From assembly GCA_005778035.1 (NCBI GenBank), contig SXKT01000012.1, forward strand, positions 1 to 32,619: DNA of 32,619 nt, in the 5' to 3' direction. Within the stretch, counting starts at the first letter, position 1. Each line of letters opens with the position of its first letter. This document shows positions 6,767-12,209 of the stretch, piece after piece. Under the pieces are notes generated by a model, which searched no databases, was not told the origin of the DNA, and saw nothing but the letters and a program-made list of their open reading frames with translations. The translations under genes and the position numbers were made by a program. The DNA comes from Chloroflexota bacterium. GTDB lineage: Bacteria > Chloroflexota > Anaerolineae > Anaerolineales > Villigracilaceae.

Positions 6767-8254
6767 ATGCAATTTCCTATCATAAGTATCATCGTTTTTA
6801 CCCCGCTGGTCGCCGCGGTCATCATGTTGATGATGAGCAAGGAGGCCAAGACCGAGGTTCGCGTACTCGCGTTGGCAGCCGCGGTTTTCGACCTTATACT
6901 TTCGGGCTGGCTGTATTTTCAGGTATATGCCAACCCAACCACCGCTTACCAATTTATCGAGAAAGTGGCATGGTTGCCGATCCTTGGTATCTCCTACCAT
7001 GTAGGTGTTGATGGCATCAGCGCCCCTATGGTGTTGCTAACTGGCATCGTTATGTTCACTGGCGTGCTCATTTCTTGGGGAGTGGATGACCGACCTCGCG
7101 AATTCTTTGCCTTCCTGTTTTTATTAGCAGGTGGCGTATTCGGTGTGTTTGTCTCGCTGGACCTGTTCATGTTGTTCTTCTTCTACGAGATCGCGGTCTT
7201 CCCAATGTATTTGCTGATCGCCATTTGGGGATGGAAGGTTACCCGCGAGTATGCGGCGATGAAGTTGACCTTATACCTTTTCATTGGTTCAGTATTCGCT
7301 TTGGTTGGAGCCTTGGCAATGTATTATGCCAATTACCAGATGCACGGGGTACTTACCTTTGATATGCTCGAACTGGAAAAGGCAGGCTTCTCCAGCGCCT
7401 TCCAATACATTTGGTTCATGCCGGTGTTTATGGGTTTCGCGGTGTTGGGTGGTATCTTCCCCTTCCACAACTGGTCTCCCGATGGCCACGTGGCTGCCCC
7501 AACCGCGGTGTCCATGTTCCATGCAGGTGTGTTGATGAAACTGGGCGCTTTTGCTGCTTTGCGAGTTGGTATTATGTTGCTGCCAGAAGGCGCTAAGCAA
7601 TGGGGATGGCTGATCTTTGGCTTTGCCATGGTAAACGTAGTTTACGGTGCTTTCATCGCCATGATCCAAACCGATATGAAATATGTGATCGGTTTTTCAT
7701 CGGTCTCTCACATGGGGTTGGTTTCACTGGGTTTTGCAACGCTTAACCGCGAGGGCATGATCGGTGCCAGCTTACAAATGTTCAGCCACGGCGTAATGAC
7801 AGCCCTCTTCTTTGCCGCAGTCGGTATGGTGTACGACAGGGCCCATACCCGCCAGATCCCTGAGTTGGGAGGTATGTCGAAACCGCTTCCATGGGTGGCG
7901 GTTGCCTTTATCATTGGCAGTTTGGTTTCCATGGGTATGCCTGGTTTCTCCGGTTTTGTGGCAGAGTTCCCCATCTTTATGGGGGTATGGCAGGTCAGTT
8001 CCATCGCTGCCATAGTGGCTTCCATTTCCATCGTAATAACCGCGGCGTATGTTTTACTGGTCGTACGCAAAGCCTTTTTTGGCGATATGCCTGAACATCT
8101 GGAAGGCCACATCACACCCATCCGCCCGTTGGACAAGGTTGCTCTGGTGACCTTGTGTTTGCTGATGATCACCTTGGGCACCTTGCCTGGAGTGATGGTG
8201 CCGATGGTCTCTCAGGGTGTTGAAAATGTTCTACGAATTTTGGGAGGCGCCTAA
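6767..8254 (+). CDS. nuoM: NADH-quinone oxidoreductase subunit M, copy 2 (divergent paralog)
   Basis: FFYEIAVFPMYLLIAIWGW and GFAVLGGIFPFHNWSPDGHVAAPTAVSMFHAGVLMKLGAF; 495 aa NuoM-type antiporter-like subunit. Confidence 0.94.
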   Translation: MQFPIISIIVFTPLVAAVIMLMMSKEAKTEVRVLALAAAVFDLILSGWLYFQVYANPTTAYQFIEKVAWLPILGISYHVGVDGISAPMVLLTGIVMFTGVLISWGVDDRPREFFAFLFLLAGGVFGVFVSLDLFMLFFFYEIAVFPMYLLIAIWGWKVTREYAAMKLTLYLFIGSVFALVGALAMYYANYQMHGVLTFDMLELEKAGFSSAFQYIWFMPVFMGFAVLGGIFPFHNWSPDGHVAAPTAVSMFHAGVLMKLGAFAALRVGIMLLPEGAKQWGWLIFGFAMVNVVYGAFIAMIQTDMKYVIGFSSVSHMGLVSLGFATLNREGMIGASLQMFSHGVMTALFFAAVGMVYDRAHTRQIPELGGMSKPLPWVAVAFIIGSLVSMGMPGFSGFVAEFPIFMGVWQVSSIAAIVASISIVITAAYVLLVVRKAFFGDMPEHLEGHITPIRPLDKVALVTLCLLMITLGTLPGVMVPMVSQGVENVLRILGGA

Positions 8255-9690
8255 TGAATTTCAATTTGATGGCAGTTTTTCCTGAATTGCTCTTGTTGGC
8301 GCTTGCTGTTGTAATTTTGGTGGTAGACCCATTTTGGAAAGATAGCAACCGCAAAAACAACCTGGGTTGGTTAGCTACCCTCGGTTTGTTTGGTGTCATC
8401 CTTGCCAGTTTATTATTCGCGGCACCTGCACAGGACCAATTGGCTTTGGGTGGCATGGTTCGTTACGACGGTTTGGGTTTCGTCTTCAAGATGTTGTTCA
8501 TCTTTACGGCAGCTGTTTCTTCCCTGTTCTTTATGGATTCTGAGAAACTGGCTAACCGTGCTGAAGCTTATGTTCTTTTGATCGCGGCGACCATTGGTAT
8601 GAACTTCATGGCCAGCTCTACCGACCTGGTGATGATCTACCTGGCTATCGAGACCACTTCGATCCCAATGTATGTTCTCAGCGGTTTCATGCTCGATGAC
8701 AAGAGATCGACTGAGGCTGGGTTCAAGTATTTGTTATTCGGCGCTTTCACCTCGGCGATCTTCCTTTATGGCTTGTCCTTGGTTTATGGCTTCTCTGGTA
8801 CTACCCAGATCAGCGATATGCGCGGCTTTTTTGGAACTTTCAATCCCGTCTCTGGCGGATTGTTGTTCCTGCTGATTGTTGGGCTTGGCTTTAAGATCTC
8901 TTTGGTTCCTTTTCACTTTTGGGCACCCGATACATATGAAGGCGCACCCACACCGGTGGCGGGTTTCCTCAGCACTGCGTCCAAAGCTGCCGGCTTTGCG
9001 TTGCTGATGCGCCTGTTTGTGATGGCCTTCCCTCAGATGGCGGAACACTGGCAGATGTTGTTGGCTGTGATGGCGACCCTCTCTATGACCTTGGGTAATT
9101 TGGTCGCTTTGGCACAAACCAACATCAAACGCCTTCTTGCCTATTCCTCCATTGCCCATGCTGGTTATGCCTTGGTTGGTTTGGTTGCCAATAGCAAATT
9201 TGGCATCGAATCGGTGGTGTATTATTTGATCGCCTACGTGGCCACCAACTTGGCAGCATTTGGCATTATCGCTGTGTTCCAAAAATCGACAGGCAGCGAC
9301 GAGATCAGGGCATTTGATGGCATGAGCCGACGGTCTCCCTACTTGGGTTTGGCAATGTTGGCAGCCTTCCTTTCCTTATCCGGCATGCCACCCTTTGGCG
9401 GTTTCATCGCCAAGGTGTTGGTATTCGCCGCCGCTATGGAAGCCGGTTGGACCTGGTTGGTCATCGTTGGCGTACTCAATTCGATCGTGGGTGTGTACTA
9501 CTACCTGACCGTACTTAAGTACGTGTACCTGTACCGCATGGAAGGGGAAGTGGAGGAGGGACACCCGATCCATTCCAGCCGCCCCGCCGTGATCGCATTA
9601 TCGATCGCCTCACTCGGCGTGATCGTGGTAGGGGTCATTTTCTCGCCTTGGTTTGGGATGGCAACCCGAGCCGCGGCAAGCTTGTTTTAG
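8254..9690 (+). CDS. nuoN: NADH-quinone oxidoreductase subunit N
   Basis: VGLGFKISLVPFHFWAPDTYEGAPTPVAGFLSTASKAAGFALLMR; start overlaps nuoM2 stop (TAATG). Confidence 0.96.
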   Translation: MNFNLMAVFPELLLLALAVVILVVDPFWKDSNRKNNLGWLATLGLFGVILASLLFAAPAQDQLALGGMVRYDGLGFVFKMLFIFTAAVSSLFFMDSEKLANRAEAYVLLIAATIGMNFMASSTDLVMIYLAIETTSIPMYVLSGFMLDDKRSTEAGFKYLLFGAFTSAIFLYGLSLVYGFSGTTQISDMRGFFGTFNPVSGGLLFLLIVGLGFKISLVPFHFWAPDTYEGAPTPVAGFLSTASKAAGFALLMRLFVMAFPQMAEHWQMLLAVMATLSMTLGNLVALAQTNIKRLLAYSSIAHAGYALVGLVANSKFGIESVVYYLIAYVATNLAAFGIIAVFQKSTGSDEIRAFDGMSRRSPYLGLAMLAAFLSLSGMPPFGGFIAKVLVFAAAMEAGWTWLVIVGVLNSIVGVYYYLTVLKYVYLYRMEGEVEEGHPIHSSRPAVIALSIASLGVIVVGVIFSPWFGMATRAAASLF

Positions 9691-9701
9691 AAATTTGTCC
9701 A

Positions 9702-9743
9702 TCATCAACCGCTCTTCCGGGGTCACCTGGGGGAGCGGTTTGA
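9702..9743 (+). terminator. Possible weak hairpin/terminator at the end of the nuo operon
   Basis: AACCGCTCTTCC ... GGGGGAGCGGTT can pair over ~12 bp with two G-U wobbles; only a short T run follows. Confidence 0.4.
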
Positions 9744-9745
9744 GA

Positions 9746-9772
9746 TTGACCAACGATTGTTTGTGATATAAT
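9746..9772 (+). promoter_or_regulatory. Candidate promoter for the atp genes: TTGACC - 15 nt - TGA TATAAT
   Basis: Perfect TATAAT (9767-9772) with extended -10 TG (9764-9765), TTGACC at 9746-9751; only 8 nt to the ATG at 9781. Confidence 0.6.
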
Positions 9773-9780
9773 ACACGACC

Positions 9781-10050
9781 ATGAATGAGCAAGAACGCAA
9801 AAACTCTGACAAACAGGCGCGATCCAACCTTGCCTTGGCAGCAGTTGCCAGCCAGGTGGGGGTGGTCACGATCGTAATTGTTTTTGCGGCACTTATTGGT
9901 GGTTTGTTGTTGGATAAGCAATTCGATACCAAACCAATGTTCACCCTTTTGTTACTGGTGTTCAGCATGCCGGTAACTGTTTTCCTAATGATCAAGATCG
10001 TCAAGAGTGCCACAAGTCGCATTCAGCCGGTCATCAAAAAAGAAGAATAG
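9781..10050 (+). CDS. AtpI/AtpZ-like small membrane protein of the ATP synthase operon
   Basis: 89 aa, two predicted TM helices, position directly before atpB, AtpZ-like pattern GGLLLDKQFDTKPMFTLLLLVFSMPVTVFLMIK. Confidence 0.75.
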   Translation: MNEQERKNSDKQARSNLALAAVASQVGVVTIVIVFAALIGGLLLDKQFDTKPMFTLLLLVFSMPVTVFLMIKIVKSATSRIQPVIKKEE

Positions 10051-10076
10051 AAAATCTTATAAGGAGGTAATTCGTT

Positions 10077-11090
10077 GTGACAGGAACTCCAAAACAGAAA
10101 GTATGGGGCCGTTGGGTTGTTCTCGCGGCGTTCGTGCTTGGCTTGTACCTGTTCACCGGCTTCTTTGGGTTTGGCCTTGCCATCCCGGTTGTAATGCCGG
10201 CCGTTGTACTGCCTACCGAACCACTCACAGAGATCATCCACACCCCATTGGGCGAGTTTTTCCTTAGCGGCACCTTGGTTGCCTTGCTCATCGCAGATGC
10301 AGCCATCATCGCTATCGCGCTTGGCATCAGCGCCGCAGTAAAAAAAGGCGACCTGATCCTGACCGGTATCGTGGGTGCTGTTGAAGCCTTGTTGGAAATG
10401 CTGCATGGCATGACCGAAGGCACCGCCGGTAAATGGACCAAACAGATCTTCCCTTGGTTTGCTACCATCACCTTGCTGGTGATGATCGCTAACTGGACCG
10501 AGCTTTTGCCTGGCGTTGAAACGATTGGCCGATTAGTGCAAGATGAAAAAGGCCACTATGAGTTACAACAAGTAGGCCCGATCCAAAGCATCATTAATCC
10601 TGCCGAAGATGGCCATGCTGCTGAAGGTGAGCATCACGAAGGCTGGCACCTGTACCCATTTGTCCGTGTTGTCTCAACAGACTTAAACTTCACGGTCGCC
10701 TTGGCACTGGTCGCGGTGGTGATGATCCAGTACTTTGGCATCAAATCGCAAGGCCTGGCTTACTTTTCCAAGTTTTGGGCAACAGGCACGGTCTTCTCCA
10801 AACCGATCTTTGGTGTGATCGATTTTGGCGTTGGTCTGCTTGAGATCGTCTCCGAATTTTCAAAGGTCCTGTCATTTGCCTTCCGTCTTTTTGGTAATAT
10901 TTTCGCTGGTTCCGTTTTGCTGTTTGTTATTGGCTCCTTGGTACCAGTATTTGCACAGTCCATCTTTTATTTGTTGGAATTTTTCGTGGGCGCCATTCAG
11001 GCGTTCGTGTTCGGTCTGTTGGCAATGACCTTTATGGCGCAAGCCACACAAGGCCACGGCGGCGAACATCACGAGGAAGCACACGCGTAA
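10077..11090 (+). CDS. atpB: ATP synthase subunit a
   Basis: FRLFGNIFAGSVLL (essential Arg helix), C-terminal FVGAIQAFVFGLLAMTFMAQATQGH; SD AAGGAGG. Confidence 0.95.
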   Translation: MTGTPKQKVWGRWVVLAAFVLGLYLFTGFFGFGLAIPVVMPAVVLPTEPLTEIIHTPLGEFFLSGTLVALLIADAAIIAIALGISAAVKKGDLILTGIVGAVEALLEMLHGMTEGTAGKWTKQIFPWFATITLLVMIANWTELLPGVETIGRLVQDEKGHYELQQVGPIQSIINPAEDGHAAEGEHHEGWHLYPFVRVVSTDLNFTVALALVAVVMIQYFGIKSQGLAYFSKFWATGTVFSKPIFGVIDFGVGLLEIVSEFSKVLSFAFRLFGNIFAGSVLLFVIGSLVPVFAQSIFYLLEFFVGAIQAFVFGLLAMTFMAQATQGHGGEHHEEAHA

Positions 11091-11150
11091 GCTTCGGGCG
11101 CTTGCCCGGGTAAACCATTTTACAATTGGCGGAACCCCCGCCCGAAACTT
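11089..11150 (+). other. atpB-atpE intercistronic stem-loop
   Basis: TTCGGGCG (11093-11100) pairs with CGCCCGAA (11139-11146); stem extends to 12 positions with one mismatch; lies just upstream of the atpE SD GGAGGA. Confidence 0.55.
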
Positions 11151-11168
11151 TAACGGAGGATTTGATCT

Positions 11169-11396
11169 ATGGATGCAAATGCAGCTAAATTAATTGGTGC
11201 TGGTCTGGCTATGATCGGTGCCATCGGCGCAGGTGCCGGTATTGGTATCGTCGCGAGCGGCGCTGTACAGGCGATGGGCCGTAACCCAGATGCCACCGGT
11301 ACGATTCAGACCAACATGATCCTTGGCATCGCGTTCGCTGAAGCCGTGGCCATTTACTGTTTGGTCGTCGCTCTCCTTATCCTGTTCGTTTTCTAA
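11169..11396 (+). CDS. atpE: ATP synthase subunit c (75 aa, predicted H+-type)
   Basis: Glycine-rich TM1 GAGLAMIGAIGAGAGIGIVASG, RNPDA loop, carboxylate in GIAFAEAVAIY. Confidence 0.96.
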   Translation: MDANAAKLIGAGLAMIGAIGAGAGIGIVASGAVQAMGRNPDATGTIQTNMILGIAFAEAVAIYCLVVALLILFVF

Positions 11397-11414
11397 GATA
11401 ACAGGAGGTACACC

Positions 11415-12149
11415 TTGGAAGCTTTAGGTATTAATGGATCATTTTTACTGGTTCAAATCGTAAACCTGATCATCGTTTATGTTGTTGTTAGCAAATGGAT
11501 CGTCGGCCCGATCATCTCCATGCTCGAGAAACGCCGCGAAACAATTGCCCAAGGCATCGAAGATGCCCGTGTAGCCGCTGATGCCCGCGCCAATGCTGAG
11601 AAAGAAGCTGAGAAGATCATTGCCGAGGCTCAAACCAAGGCCAGCAAGGTTGTTCGTGATGCCAATGAGCGTGCCGAATCAGTGGCCCGCGATGTTAAAT
11701 CTGCTGCCGAAGCCGAAGCTGGCAAAGCCCGTGAAAAGGCCCTTGCCGGTGTTGAGGAAGAACGTGCCCGTATTTTGGGTGATCTTCGTGGCCAGGTTGC
11801 CGCCCTTTCCATCGCAGCTGCCCAAAAATTGGTCAACGATGCCCTGGATGAGAAACGCCAGCGCGCCCTTATCGATGAATTCTTTACCGGCGTAAAAGCC
11901 GGCAAGATCGTCGTGCTCGAAGATGCCAGCCTTACCGGCGCTACCGCTGAAGTGACCAGCGCTTTGCCACTTACGAGCGCTGAACAGGAATCCGCCAAAA
12001 AAGACGTCCTCGCCAAAACTGGTGCCCAGGCTGTATCTTTCAAGGTAGATCCTTCCATTCTCGGTGGTTTGGTTATCAAGGTCGGCGACAAGGTCGTAGA
12101 CGGTTCCGTCTCCGGCAAGCTCGAAGGCCTGCGCGCCAGCCTGCGCTAA
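11415..12149 (+). CDS. atpF: ATP synthase subunit b fused to the C-terminal domain of subunit delta
   Basis: N-terminal TM and long charged helix typical of b (LEKRRETIAQGIEDAR...), then delta-C pattern AEVTSALPLTSAEQESAKKDVLAKTGAQAVSFKVDPSILGGLVIKVGDKVVDGSVSGKLEGLRASL; TTG start with AGGAGG upstream. Confidence 0.88.
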   Translation: MEALGINGSFLLVQIVNLIIVYVVVSKWIVGPIISMLEKRRETIAQGIEDARVAADARANAEKEAEKIIAEAQTKASKVVRDANERAESVARDVKSAAEAEAGKAREKALAGVEEERARILGDLRGQVAALSIAAAQKLVNDALDEKRQRALIDEFFTGVKAGKIVVLEDASLTGATAEVTSALPLTSAEQESAKKDVLAKTGAQAVSFKVDPSILGGLVIKVGDKVVDGSVSGKLEGLRASLR

Positions 12150-12169: not shown

Positions 12170-12209
12170 AAAGCAGCCCTGATGTTATTATTGGGGCTGC
12201 TTTCTTTTT
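12170..12209 (+). terminator. Intrinsic terminator closing the bioenergetic block
   Basis: Perfect 10-bp stem AAAGCAGCCC (12170-12179) / GGGCTGCTTT (12194-12203) followed by CTTTTTA. Confidence 0.9.

Follow-up and report, generated by a model that had tools for sequence, protein, structure and literature searches.

A b subunit fused to the C-terminal domain of delta alone in the F-type ATP synthase of Anaerolineae

The window (the whole stretch of 32,619 nucleotides that was analysed) contains an Fo operon, in which atpI, atpB and atpE are followed by a fusion gene; murE (named from sequence) comes next. The fusion gene is a 244-aa open reading frame with a TTG start codon and an AGGAGG motif approximately 8 nt upstream. 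The relevant features are:

9781..10050, + strand, atpI-like ATPase_gene1 protein (PF09527, E 6.5e-8)
10077..11090, + strand, subunit a (atpB), 337 aa (PF00119, E 8.2e-36)
11169..11396, + strand, subunit c (atpE), 75 aa (PF00137)
11415..12149, + strand, b-deltaC fusion gene, 244 aa, TTG start
11415..11894, + strand, subunit b part of the fusion (residues 1 to ~160): membrane segment, stalk helix and C-terminal helix 146-161
11895..11930, + strand, linker of ~12-15 residues, in the place where the delta N-terminal domain would be (pLDDT <50 at residues 159-172)
11922..12146, + strand, C-terminal domain only of delta (OSCP), profile positions 97-172 of 172
12170..12208, + strand, intrinsic-terminator-like hairpin and T run in the gap between the fusion gene and murE (15-pair stem followed by CTTTTT)

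The hairpin is a putative terminator which would close the Fo operon; the number of terminator-like sites in the region does not exceed that expected by chance, though the placement of this one fits. The Fo genes directly follow nuoM and nuoN (positions 6767-12149 of the window) and are separate from the F1 genes, which are located elsewhere. Among the 80 loci with this architecture that a scan of public genomes found in Anaerolineae/Chloroflexota, most share the gene order nuoM, nuoN, atpI, a, c, fusion, murE. In two cases the F-type Fo operon is immediately followed by an operon for a V/A-type ATPase, whose C, I, E, A and B subunits were named from sequence (L104:9271-16732 and L109:2579-10125).

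The first-pass annotation described the protein as a normal b subunit joined to the C-terminal domain of delta, with no delta N-terminal domain (NTD) between them, and both the Pfam boundaries and the predicted structure bear this out. Residues 11-140 match ATP-synt_B (E 1.8e-22) and residues 14-157 match TIGR01144, which, together with the N-terminal membrane segment and the location within an atpB-E-F operon, identifies an F-type subunit b. Residues 170-243 match OSCP (E 9.6e-18), at profile positions 97-172 of 172 only. The AlphaFold2 model (mean pLDDT 72, ~60-70 in the C-domain) places helices at residues 8-140 and 146-161 and, after a linker of low confidence (159-172), the E-H-E-E-E-H arrangement of the delta C-domain at residues 177-243. 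The six-helix NTD of a typical F-type delta is absent from the protein according to both the Pfam HMM and the model, which leaves no space for it.

The metagenome-assembled genome containing the window is incomplete (63.75%) and has no atpA, and for this reason the absence of the NTD was judged from relatives. An NTD profile, built from 13 delta proteins and tested on held-out delta-bearing genomes, recovered the separate delta in all five of the latter (E 3e-22 to 4e-29), but detected none in 16 near-complete genomes carrying the fusion, closed ones included (top stray matches E 0.45 and 0.77), which supports the annotation's reading. It should be borne in mind that a strongly reduced NTD could escape this profile, since the shortened NTDs of two Chloroflexia went undetected as well. 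Apart from genomes that encode an N-ATPase in addition, each fusion genome has a single ATP-synt_B gene; in G327 a 120-aa frame gives a second match, below the cut-off. Judging from this gene content, a homodimer of b-deltaC is the expected form of the stalk.

The fusion is widely distributed. An OSCP match is present in 55 of the 61 genomes of the order, in every case covering the C-domain only; these matches begin at profile position 76-105, mostly in frames of ~240-280 aa. All 24 aligned relatives are 244-247 aa long and share the same architecture, and three named cultured strains (Thermanaerothrix daxensis, Leptolinea tardivitalis and Anaerolinea thermolimosa) are among the 80 loci. Such constancy in 24 relatives and recurrence in 80 loci exclude chance or an assembly error. 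In Chloroflexota outside the large class Anaerolineae delta is mostly full-length (profile 1-172), and within this class a separate delta of full length persists in G134 and G222. In some Chloroflexia the separate delta has a shortened NTD (~118 aa in L068 and L078, ~157 aa in L076 and L080); the L080 protein is identical to PDB 9itj_S (157 aa, reduced NTD).

The genome G222, in which the b and delta reading frames abut, points to a possible origin of the fusion. In comparison with these frames, the fusion retains b to approximately residue 158 and delta from approximately residue 103, so that it looks like the product of a single in-frame deletion joining neighbouring atpF and atpH genes. A single origin within Anaerolineae is probable, through loss of the atpF stop codon and of the NTD part of the adjoining atpH; in the alpha tree one change suffices for the fusion lineage, with modest support (73/90).

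How, then, is the stalk attached to F1? The annotation argued that, if there is no separate delta, the attachment must differ from that of known enzymes, which is a sound inference. In the canonical enzyme, one alpha N-terminal region is contacted by deltaC and the other two by the NTD, which occupies the threefold axis and is held to cap the number of stalks at one (Ueno 2025, PMC12229609). The alpha N-terminal helix has been kept in all 30 fusion-lineage alphas that were aligned (hydrophobic positions L7, I8, I11, L15, I19 and F22 of 30 aligned columns). Its retention suggests a remaining partner, for which deltaC is the obvious candidate. We propose that the b coiled coil would be formed by two copies of the fusion, giving two deltaC domains per stalk, at least one of which would grip the amphipathic alpha helix directly, as FliH grips FliI; in the FliH complex the two C-domains have different targets, FliI helix 2-21 for one and a basic patch for the other (PMC9114704). 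If the threefold axis of the F1 crown is free of an NTD, no known factor would limit attachment to one alpha, and the enzyme could bear more than one peripheral stalk, with a further a-subunit accompanying each, as in Chloroflexus aurantiacus. To this explanation taken as a whole (an ordinary F-type stator, direct deltaC-alpha attachment, more than one stalk permitted, origin by a single deletion) we assign an even chance.

A 46-54-residue insert was observed in alphas of the fusion lineage (L031, L034-L060, L073, L082 and L083), just before the conserved GG-SLTALP motif. It is absent from full-delta class-mates, Chloroflexia, the N-ATPase alpha and one fusion-bearing family (f11; L032 and L033). 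We considered it as a replacement anchor and rejected this idea: the insert is not required, since family f11 has the fusion without it.

The possibility of several stalks is raised by the C. aurantiacus structures. The PDB entries contain 6 gamma, 18 alpha and 12 delta chains (in 6 entries each) as well as 72 b and 36 a chains (in 18 entries each), which by chain counts gives each F1 one gamma and three alpha, together with two delta, four b and two a. In one solved Chloroflexota enzyme a reduced NTD is thus combined with two stalks (the latter by chain counts), and the complete loss of the NTD in Anaerolineae makes it plausible that several stalks may occur there. The parallel is incomplete: the C. 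aurantiacus delta retains a reduced NTD (157 aa), and a homodimer would place two deltaC domains on each stalk, unlike the b2-delta arrangement of C. aurantiacus, so that crowding could limit the number of stalks. In an engineered enzyme in which the NTD was removed and deltaC fused to alpha (deltaDeltaN-alpha), up to three stalks were formed, each with an a-subunit, and H+/ATP reached 5.8 (PMC12229609). Its deltaC was carried by alpha and not by b, which counts against the comparison, and its authors feared unstable binding of deltaDeltaN alone (PMC12229609). The extended N-terminal half of subunit a was tried as a marker of multiple stalks; it is uninformative on this point, because it is common to relatives with full delta. 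A search of literature and structures found no Anaerolineae ATP synthase structure or biochemistry, and no paper on 9itj or on an Anaerolineae delta was recognised in the literature covered. That Anaerolineae might naturally possess a multi-stalk enzyme as their main F-type ATP synthase, with 2-3 b-deltaC stalks and a-subunits per F1, a raised H+/ATP ratio and a V/A-like stator acquired through deletion of the delta NTD, is offered tentatively, with a likelihood somewhat below even.

The strongest competing view is that the enzyme has a single stalk, a b-deltaC homodimer that holds one alpha through deltaC and is accompanied by one a-subunit, the NTD having become dispensable once delta was covalently tied to b. 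With the two covalently joined, delta no longer needs an affinity for b, in the canonical enzyme deltaC by itself touches one alpha, and no evidence of several stalks was found for N-ATPases with the same long b. Against it stand the argument that the NTD is what limits stalk number (Ueno 2025) and the two stalks, by chain counts, of the nearest solved enzyme of the phylum; we regard this view as a real possibility, although one that we doubt.

An unrelated or highly diverged protein could instead occupy the place of the NTD on the F1 crown. The strong conservation of the alpha N-terminal helices leads one to expect a partner, and a profile search overlooks relatives detectable by fold only; the reduced NTDs of two Chloroflexia were passed over as well. 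Nevertheless, neither a convincing NTD match in the 16 genomes (best E 0.45 and 0.77) nor an extra gene standing out in the Fo operon (80 loci) or beside atpA (one F1 locus examined) was found, and such a substitute is improbable.

Finally, it is most improbable that the protein belongs to an accessory pump of the N-ATPase type instead of the main ATP synthase: like an N-ATPase, the lineage combines a long b with no delta gene, and TIGR03321 (alternate F1F0 b) matches the similarly built fusion nearly end to end (E 1.7e-17), but this match is far below its cut-off (64 bits vs 224.7) while TIGR01144 passes its own (105), the alpha tree groups the relatives' alphas with ordinary Chloroflexota alpha and separates the N-ATPase alpha (100/100), and two genomes (G051 and G215) have a true N-ATPase in addition. 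Because of this separation, the fusion also looks independent of the N-ATPase b. A second, N-ATPase-like operon, whose b likewise ends in a delta-C-like part, was noted in two genomes of the order (L085:525-1316 and L086:534-1328). The fusion is thus assigned to the stator of the ordinary F-type ATP synthase in this organism.

These results bear on a general question. The restriction of F-type enzymes to one peripheral stalk is attributed to the delta NTD, which an entire lineage has here removed. With a two-stalk enzyme deposited from the same phylum and cultured Anaerolineae (the three strains named above) in existence, the question of stalk number and H+/ATP ratio becomes testable in nature. 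If confirmed, a multi-stalk enzyme with raised H+/ATP would be well matched to an anaerobic life at low proton-motive force.

Several known systems resemble the fusion in part. The N-ATPase b (TIGR03321; 23% identity along the length) is also long, has a delta-C-like end, lacks a separate delta and has been described as E-like (PMC5706428), but it serves a second, accessory enzyme, whereas the fusion belongs to the ordinary F-type enzyme of the whole order and scores as an ordinary b. The annotation overlooked this precedent, in which N-ATPases do without delta while having a long b (PMC5706428), and also the intermediates that occur in the same phylum. Mycobacterial b-delta (PDB 9vkp_d and 7jg5_d), the top fold match, also joins b to delta; as the annotation stated, it contains a whole delta (chains of 445-448 aa), and it is accompanied by a second, short b, while the Anaerolineae protein has no NTD and is encoded by the only b gene, and thus is not an AtpFH. 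The C. aurantiacus enzyme (PDB 9itj and companion entries) comes from the same phylum and provides the closest solved b and a (for a, chain 9itj_T, E 2.5e-41); it has a shortened delta NTD, and each F1, by chain counts, bears two stalks with two a-subunits, but its delta is a separate 157-aa protein, present once per b2. The engineered Bacillus PS3 deltaDeltaN-alpha and the natural Acidaminococcus delta-alpha fusion (PMC12229609) also join a delta without NTD to a stator part, the partner being alpha rather than b. Finally, FliH/SctL and the V/A-ATPase subunit E combine a stalk helix and a delta-C-like domain in one chain without an NTD, and the fusion shows sequence matches to subunit E and fold matches to V-ATPase subunits and FliH (5b0o). 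Those proteins serve other ATPases, E paired with G and a FliH dimer bound to each of six FliI, whereas here a FliH/E-like chain forms part of an F-type stator, in the enzyme that serves a bacterial lineage as its main ATP synthase.
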